Below are positions 17,573 through 19,521 of a DNA stretch of 21,769 bases, piece by piece. Positions within the stretch are counted from its first letter, which is position 1; each line of letters opens with the position of its first letter. This stretch comes from a virus, in the IMG/VR virus record IMGVR_UViG_3300032331_004365, positions 1-21,769 of that record. One strand, given 5' to 3'. The translations under genes were made by a program, and so were the position numbers. The notes beneath the pieces are model-generated. The model was not told where the DNA came from. It did no database searches and saw nothing but the letters and a program-made list of their open reading frames with translations.

Positions 17573-18592
17573 ATGTCTGAAGAAGTTTTCCGCCCCAGAA
17601 AACCCGAAGAAAATTTAGAAAAACTACAGTCAGCAGAAGCTATTAGGCAAGCTGCTTCTGGAGAAACAACAAAACCAAGTGGACAAATGCCTTTTGAAAT
17701 TAAAGGCAATGTGCCTCCCGAGTTTTTGAACGCAATGGGTATGCAAAGCAACCCTGCTGCTGTGTCAAGTGGCGCTGATAGAGCAGCACCAAGTGGCAAC
17801 TTAAAAGATCTTCTTGATGATCTGAGGCAATCAACTTCTGTTTATGAGAAAATAGAACTTCCATCAAGAGGTATTTTTTATGATGGGGAAAATGGTCCTT
17901 CAGACGGAGTGCTTCATATAAAGCCAATGACAGGTGAAGAAGAACAAATATTAGCCACCCCAAGGTTTGTCAAAAAGGGACAGGCTTTAAACATGATATT
18001 CTCCAGATGTATTAAAGAAAAAATTAAGCCAGAAGATCTTCTTACTGTTGATAGAACATACTTATTAATTTATCTTAGAGGCATATCTTATTCTCCTTTA
18101 TACGAAGTAGAAATAAAATGCCCAGAGTGTGAAAGAAAATTTTCAACAGAGATAGATCTAAACACCTTGATGGTCGAGTCAGCCCCAGAAGGATATGGAC
18201 CATCTTTGGAAGGTGTTTTGCCTACTTCTAAATACACATTTAGATACAGATTATCAAAGGGCAAGGATGAAACAGATATTCAAGATCACCGAGAAAGAAG
18301 GATTAAGAATTTTGGAGATAATTCAACAGATGATACCCTAATATATAGAACTTCTATTTTGGTTGAAGAAATACAAGGAATAACAGACAAAAGAGATCTT
18401 CAAACATTGATTAAAAATCTTCCAATCTCAGATGTTTCACACATAAGAAATTGCGTAAATGAGCCTCCATTCGGTGTAGACACGAAAGTAGATATAGTTT
18501 GTCCAAGTTGTCTACAAGAATTTGACGTGGATCTTCCACTTGAAGCAAATTTTTTCTTCCCACGTCGGAGGAGGTACAAAATGCAAGCCTAA
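17573..18592 (+). CDS. Baseplate-type zinc-ribbon protein (gp26-like)
   Basis: Resembles the T4 baseplate protein family represented by gp26 (Pfam PF12322 from memory), needed for baseplate hub assembly in contractile-tail systems. The first 90 residues are a disordered Gly/Ser/Ala/Pro-rich arm. The core begins EKIELPSRGIFYDGENGPSD (about residue 93) and continues HIKPMTGEEEQILATPRFVK, then LLTVDRTYLLIYLRGISY. Two Cys-x-x-Cys pairs (residues 183/186 in CPECERKF and 310/313 in CPSCLQEF) can form one zinc ribbon. The start at 17573 (MSEEVF) has AAAGG eight bases upstream; a longer frame from 17522 adds 17 residues without a good ribosome binding site. At the 3' end a T TTT TTC heptamer (18550-18556) could send ribosomes into the next frame, extending the product from 339 to 400 aa. 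Confidence 0.85.
   Translation: MSEEVFRPRKPEENLEKLQSAEAIRQAASGETTKPSGQMPFEIKGNVPPEFLNAMGMQSNPAAVSSGADRAAPSGNLKDLLDDLRQSTSVYEKIELPSRGIFYDGENGPSDGVLHIKPMTGEEEQILATPRFVKKGQALNMIFSRCIKEKIKPEDLLTVDRTYLLIYLRGISYSPLYEVEIKCPECERKFSTEIDLNTLMVESAPEGYGPSLEGVLPTSKYTFRYRLSKGKDETDIQDHRERRIKNFGDNSTDDTLIYRTSILVEEIQGITDKRDLQTLIKNLPISDVSHIRNCVNEPPFGVDTKVDIVCPSCLQEFDVDLPLEANFFFPRRRRYKMQA
18550..18556 (+). other. Candidate -1 ribosomal frameshift heptamer T TTT TTC
   Basis: In the gp26-like frame the codons read AAT TTT TTC, so T TTT TTC fits the X XXY YYZ slippery rule. The -1 frame has a stop at 18541-18543 and is then open to 18774, so it becomes usable just before the heptamer. A purine-rich GGAGGAGG lies 10 bases after the heptamer. 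No strong downstream stem or pseudoknot was found by eye. Confidence 0.5.
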
Positions 18593-18594
18593 GT

Positions 18595-18774
18595 TTGTGG
18601 GAAAATTTAGCAGAAGAAATATTTTTCTTTCAATATCACATGCGACAAAGCATGAAAGATACTATGATATTGCCTATTAATCTTAGAAAATGGTTAATAC
18701 AAAGATACATACAACAAAAAGAAAAAGAAAATGAACAAATGGAAGCAGAAAGAAGAAAAGTCAGAAAGAGATAA
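18595..18774 (+). CDS. Small ORF after gp26-like gene, DUF6760-like; no ATG at its start
   Basis: This frame (open from 18544) encodes SLWENLAEEIFFFQYHMRQS, DTMILPINLRKWLIQRYIQQ and a Lys/Glu-rich end. The LWEN-AEEI-FFFQYH segment followed by LP-x-x-x-R-x-W resembles, from memory, the short DUF6760-like proteins that follow gp26-type baseplate proteins in contractile injection systems (L[YW]EE-AFxAYHFHW then R-RRRWxEEI). The conserved segment begins before any ATG; the first ATG is 18640 (44 aa). TTG 18595 would give 59 aa but lies too far from GGAGGAGG. Three explanations remain: -1 frameshift from the upstream gene, TTG reinitiation after its stop at 18592, or a short protein from 18640. 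The next gene begins three bases after its stop. Confidence 0.6.
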   Translation: MWENLAEEIFFFQYHMRQSMKDTMILPINLRKWLIQRYIQQKEKENEQMEAERRKVRKR

Positions 18775-18777
18775 AAA

Positions 18778-19521
18778 ATGCCTACAAAAGAAAGATTTCA
18801 AAATCCCAGCTGCGGCGATGATATAAACTTAAGATTATTTTCTTTTAATTCAAACACAAAGACAAATTTTTATCAAGTTGACAAGGTTGAGATATATTTT
18901 TTAGATCCTACTGAGATTACTACAGAAAACCCAACAGGTAAAAGACTTGTTCAGTCAATATTGGGGGAAGAAGTTGTTAATAACGAAGAAGGAGAATACC
19001 TTTTAACTGTAAATCTTACAAGTCCTTTGTATACAATTGGTAAATATGTTGATGTTTGGTATGTAAAATTTGAAGAGTCGGAGCCGTGCACAGAATCGAG
19101 TATTGAAAATTACTTTGAAGTATTCCCAAGTCTTTGGTTTACATCTACATCTCCAAGCATATACGATTTTAGTTTTTATTTTAAGCCCAATAAAATAACA
19201 AAAGGTAGTAAAAGATACGTAATAATAGAAGTAATTCCTAATGTTCCAAAAAGCGAAGAATTAGAAAGATATTATAATAATTTGGCTATAATATCTGATT
19301 TGAAAATATACCTAGAAAGAAACTGTTCTGATTGTTTGCCAGCAGAACAAGATTTAAGATTAGTAGTTGACGGAGAAAATGTTTCTTTTAGAGAAAAAAG
19401 ATTCGGATACTATTTCTTAGATACAACAGACTTAGATAGGGGCATATATGATATTTGGTTTGAATTAAACTATGCTGAAAATACTTACGTCTCAGATAGA
19501 AATCAATTACAAATATATTAG
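18778..19521 (+). CDS. 247-aa beta-rich protein, probably structural
   Basis: No family recognised by name. The protein reads as two beta-sandwich-like halves. Residues 1-115 contain INLRLFSFNSNTKTNFYQVD then KVEIYFLDPTEI, EGEYLLTVNLTSPLYTIGKY and VDVWYVKFEESEP. Residues 120-247 contain DFSFYFKPNKITKGSKRYVI, LKIYLERNCSDCLPAEQDLR, KRFGYYFLDTTDLDRGIYDIW and a final strand VSDRNQLQIY. Alternation of short strands and turns with few helices suggests Ig-like domains typical of phage adhesins and virion proteins. It follows the gp26/small-ORF pair by three bases and precedes a glycosyltransferase gene by twelve, so it may be a tail or baseplate component or a substrate of that enzyme; both are inferences. 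Confidence 0.72.
   Translation: MPTKERFQNPSCGDDINLRLFSFNSNTKTNFYQVDKVEIYFLDPTEITTENPTGKRLVQSILGEEVVNNEEGEYLLTVNLTSPLYTIGKYVDVWYVKFEESEPCTESSIENYFEVFPSLWFTSTSPSIYDFSFYFKPNKITKGSKRYVIIEVIPNVPKSEELERYYNNLAIISDLKIYLERNCSDCLPAEQDLRLVVDGENVSFREKRFGYYFLDTTDLDRGIYDIWFELNYAENTYVSDRNQLQIY

Follow-up and report, generated by a model that had tools for sequence, protein, structure and literature searches.

As the gp26-like gene of an uncultured virus overlaps a small ORF in the −1 frame, and T TTT TTC stands in the overlap, this locus raises the question of whether the two frames are joined by programmed −1 frameshifting or are expressed in some other way. A reading made from the DNA letters alone (the sequence-only reading) had proposed the former. 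We analyzed the whole 21,769-nt stretch (the window; IMG/VR record IMGVR_UViG_3300032331_004365, positions 1 to 21,769) and compared the junction with those of related phages.

An in-phase heptamer near the end of the gp26-like gene

The features at the junction are as follows.

17573..18592, + strand: gp26-like gene coding for the short form (TAC-N) of 339 aa; matches PF12322 and phrog_150, and the profile of its family matches T4 gp26
18541..18543, + strand: TAA closing the −1 frame just 5' of the slip site
18550..18556, + strand: in-phase slip heptamer T TTT TTC within codons aat ttt ttc (18548-18556); present in 81/81 sequences
18556..18774, + strand: −1 extension (TAC-C) of 72 aa plus stop; open in all relatives, with pN/pS as given below
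18557..18603, + strand: possible local stem UUCCCACG/UGUGGGAA directly 3' of the heptamer; not conserved, status uncertain
18590..18592, + strand: TAA ending the short form in the 0 frame, 11 codons past the heptamer

This geometry is as the sequence-only reading had described it. The heptamer is in phase near the gene end, 11 codons before the 0-frame stop, and the −1 frame is shut up to 18543 and from there open as far as the stop that ends the extension (18772-18774). Gene length and translation of the fused frames likewise give the 339 and 400 residues that had been predicted for the two products. The long form would carry the peptide ...EANFFLPTSEEVQ... across the frameshift junction, with the extension contributing LPTSEEVQNASLSLWEN...KVRKR.

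The gp26-like protein belongs to PF12322 'T4_baseplate' (E=4.2e-19, 69.5 bits, against a curated cut-off of 24.5), matches phrog_150 'baseplate hub' at E=2.9e-22, and contains two CxxC zinc-ribbon-like pairs. Directly 3' of the extension is a gene of about 247 codons and unknown family (18778-19521), and an ORF of similar size occupies the same place in most relatives examined. At its other end, the window starts within an ORF bearing a long run of Asp-Glu repeats (3-60).

In-phase X XXY YYZ motifs (Y=A/T) occur 66 times in the 6,213 codons of this AT-rich window's ORFs. Since chance supplies many such motifs, little follows from this window taken by itself, and it is conservation in relatives that makes this heptamer significant.

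The heptamer codons do not vary among close relatives

Scanning viral contigs turned up 170 relatives, and we kept 80 of them. Together with the window they make up a junction set of 81 sequences, 57 of them distinct at the junction. TTTTTTC is in phase in all 81, at 8-13 codons from the 0-frame stop. The homologue alignment that the sequence-only reading had proposed as a check thus shows that 80/80 close relatives keep heptamer, overlap and −1 coding sequence, as do distant isolated phages.

A codon alignment of the 57 distinct sequences has 156 columns conserved in amino acid, where identical residues differ in codon at a mean fraction of 0.57. Synonymous variation is zero in just three of the 156, AAT/AGT, TTT and TTC, and these are the codons of the heptamer. 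The TTC codon right after the heptamer is almost frozen (synonymous difference 0.07), while other conserved Phe columns range from 0.41 to 0.51. We also considered A AAT TTT, one codon upstream, as an alternative heptamer and rejected it, as its first base varies (GCC or GCG precedes) and AGT replaces the Asn codon in 5/57.

Could the heptamer simply reflect biased codon use in a conserved Asn-Phe-Phe-Phe peptide, with the overlap an accident? The NFFF peptide is indeed conserved, and the abundance of in-phase slippery motifs in the window fits such an origin. However, Phe codons elsewhere in these genes are split between TTT (394) and TTC (358), there is free variation in 11 other conserved Phe columns, and RaK2-like, PA5oct-like and cyanophage genes retain T TTT TTC despite differing surrounding residues. 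We consider the chance that this account is correct to be negligible.

If the RNA polymerase rather than the ribosome changed frame by slipping on the T run, a run of six T would be the kind of site expected, and homopolymer slippage is known for other genes. Yet six is short for bacterial slippage, the run consists of exactly six T and keeps the X XXY YYZ phase every time, and TTT, which would lengthen it, replaces TTC in 0/57 distinct sequences. Polymerase slippage is therefore extremely unlikely in our estimation.

The −1 extension evolves as coding sequence

In the −1 frame, the extension has a pN/pS of 0.33 overall and 0.28 past the overlap; the identical bases read in the other frames give 1.09 and 1.37. 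Judged by these ratios, the extension is under purifying selection in the −1 frame only. Its invariant residues include E21, F23-F25, Y27, R44, Q54, K55 and E58. Together, heptamer codons without synonymous variation and a −1 frame under purifying selection lend strong comparative support to the frameshift that the sequence-only reading had suggested.

That reading had also observed that conserved-looking −1 sequence begins before any ATG, and the first −1 ATG does fall 3' of the LWENLAEEIFFFQYH motif. Between the heptamer and this motif, 39/57 sequences have no ATG, GTG or TTG. The remaining 18, the window included, have a TTG or ATG 1-3 codons upstream of the motif, at positions that vary and with no well-placed Shine-Dalgarno; in the window and its nearest relatives this is a TTG just 5' of LWENLAEEIFFFQYH, in the window without a Shine-Dalgarno at normal spacing. 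Homologues in which the small ORF has its own start were looked for, and no conserved independent start was found. As most sequences have no start here and the others have one in varying places, independent initiation is not the shared mechanism.

These observations bear directly on the idea that the small ORF stands as a gene of its own, translated by coupling or re-initiation at the TTG or another start near the stop. The 18/57 sequences with a start codon would allow this, and in the window the TTG is preceded by a purine-rich GGAGGAGG. But 39/57 lack ATG, GTG and TTG there, although the peptide upstream of the motif is conserved too, the start keeps no fixed place and no suitably spaced Shine-Dalgarno, and a separate gene leaves both the frozen heptamer codons and their recurrence in distant phages unexplained. 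We regard it as very unlikely.

The extension is predicted to be helical throughout (pLDDT 89). The sequence-only reading had called the small ORF DUF6760-like, an assignment that does not hold up: the match to DUF6760 (PF20546) is weak, at 14.2 bits against a cut-off of 27, and 12/36 relatives match at E up to 1, with a best value of 0.0018. Pfam Tma16 does pass its cut-off on the window's extension (18616-18771), and 33/36 relatives match it at E up to 1; as this is a eukaryotic family, we rejected the identity and take the match to be probably a chance likeness of a charged helix. Searches of the PDB by sequence and by fold gave no convincing relative. A fold search of BFVD returned several tail assembly chaperones and P-HM1 gp51 among its matches, none of them significant.

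We considered a downstream RNA stimulator as well. Some single sequences, the window included (z -2.2), fold well after the heptamer, with stems that differ between them. Over the 57 relatives, the mean z of the downstream folds is -0.6, with values below -2 in 9/57, and RNAalifold yielded 11 pairs with zero compensatory changes; no conserved stimulatory RNA structure was found across the relatives. A recurring hairpin at GAAGAAATATTTTTCTTTC was rejected as a stimulator, since it follows from the coding of EEIFFF.

Relation to T4 gp26 and gp51

The gp26 family profile pairs with T4 gp26 at E 1.9e-12. The profile of the fused frames aligns end to end with T4 gp51 at a score of 46.6, compared to 16.6 for the reversed profile and 20.4 for the best of 100 column shuffles. 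The extension alone matches residues 207-246 of gp51 in hhalign at 29.9 (best of 100 shuffles 15.5), a similarity beyond chance, whereas against T4 gp26 it scores 11.3 with no alignment. The gp51 match requires a diverse alignment, and a profile of the extension from the clade only gives none. In T4, gp26 is followed by gene 25, with no TAC-C-like −1 ORF there. As both the fused profile and the extension match gp51, T4 gp51 looks, on profile similarity, like the long-form chaperone written as one separate gene. In a review of the T4 tail, gp26 and gp51 are both entered as chaperones of hub assembly (PMC3004832).

Gene order points the same way in some phages. In SP-15, LIS04 and immuto, the order is sheath, tube, gp26 homologue, small ORF, tape measure, and the slot between tube and tape measure is the position of the tail assembly chaperones. 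No recognised tape measure gene lies beside the gp26-like gene in the window, and none was identified beside the gp26 homologue in the PA5oct region; in RaK2, the gene upstream, on the opposite strand, encodes a virion protein annotated as similar to a tape measure protein. From homology and gene order, we suggest that 'tail assembly chaperone' is a better name for the gp26-like gene than 'baseplate hub', and the same evidence supports renaming PF12322 'baseplate hub' genes accordingly. The sequence-only reading, which knew of no frameshift described for T4-type baseplate genes, was right about the homology to gp26; its baseplate label fits less well, and such frameshifts have been reported already (see below).

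In the record of Citrobacter phage Moon (L098 2250-3741), a joined CDS at the overlap of genes 27 and 28 is noted as a 'GT-like fusion protein'. By the present evidence, the equivalents of G and GT are gp26 and gp51.

Comparison has given us the site, a coding −1 frame, no conserved independent start, and homology to T4 gp26 and gp51. Weighing this comparative evidence, we conclude that programmed −1 frameshifting at T TTT TTC very probably operates in the gp26-like gene.

A model for the two forms, and known systems

We infer the slipping itself, its rate and the chaperone action as follows. The majority of ribosomes would terminate at 18590 and produce the 339-residue short form (TAC-N). A minority, with both tRNAs on phenylalanine codons, would slip one base back on T TTT TTC, such that TTT TTC is re-paired as TTT TTT, and would go on in the −1 frame to make the 400-residue TAC-NC, which ends in a C-terminal domain of 72 residues predicted to be helical. 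On the model of lambda gpG/gpGT, the tape measure protein would be coated by many copies of the short form and a few of the long one, whose C-terminal domain would bring in the subunit of the tail tube. Lambda differs in having another slip site and a much shorter protein. As proposed here, a lambda gene acting in tape measure and tube assembly yields a short product, gpG, and through a −1 shift a longer one, gpGT (PMC5009743). The same paper describes G/GT-type frameshifting as conserved widely among the long-tailed phages, 'except T4' (PMC5009743).

Frameshifting of tail-building chaperones is already known, some T4 relatives included. Vladimirov et al. (2022) reportedly identified T4 gp26 as TAC-N and T4 gp51 as TAC-NC, and found frameshifting in several other T4-like groups. 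Two other papers credit them with poly-T −1 signals in the TAC-N genes of T4-like phages (PMC12846349) and with short and long forms as distinct genes in certain of these phages (PMC10885494). As far as those accounts go, their chaperones resemble the window's in having a gp26-family short form, a long form with an extra C-terminal domain and, in some groups, a poly-T slip site close to where the short-form gene ends; T4 itself differs from the window in that the two forms are the separate genes 26 and 51. Pseudomonas phage Adele and the Vandenendeviridae also have a conserved −1 extension and a poly-T motif ending the short form, but they belong to another phage family and carry GTTTTT instead of TTTTTTC (PMC12846349).

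Given the frameshifting reported in other T4-like groups, the window adds a member to a known kind of system. What it brings is that frameshifted tail chaperones reach, with strong comparative support, into a large uncultured lineage of T4-like phages (170 contigs from one scan).

Extensions in distant phages

The same arrangement, T TTT TTC followed by a −1 ORF, is found in LR756511, RaK2, PA5oct, Atu_ph07 and Phosso, and in CBB, BF, UB, SCTP-2 and cyanophage S-BM1; XacN1 has T TTT TTT and then a −1 ORF. Two further relatives (L100 and L105) agree with the combination of heptamer and −1 ORF. Frameshifted tail chaperones would thereby extend to several jumbo phages and a cyanophage, with an extension ORF that is missing or mis-started in public annotation. 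In the records of RaK2, PA5oct, Atu_ph07 and S-BM1 (L092 3298-3525, L089, L088 and L109 3040-3249), this ORF is unannotated, late-started or truncated, and the S-BM1 annotation is a 31-codon 'gp51'.

A second group has the extension in the +1 (or -2) frame: SP-15, LIS04, GXN1, LR756508, Mel-JY01, immuto and RM378, as judged from the ends of their gp26 homologues (L083, L084, L085, L086, L087, L106 and L107). These sequences have a TTT codon at or next to the same conserved aromatic pair as in the −1 group, followed by C, T or A (C in 4/7). In Streptococcus phage GXN1, the sequence there is TTT CGT, resembling that of influenza PA-X. The TTT could be the point of a +1 slip on a single Phe-tRNA. 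Whether the extension has switched frame within the gp26 family (PF12322), with −1, +1 (or -2) and the two genes of T4 as three solutions at one site, is to our minds an evenly balanced matter.

Protein-based scans with the gp26 homologues of SP-15, PA5oct and RaK2 added few further contigs.
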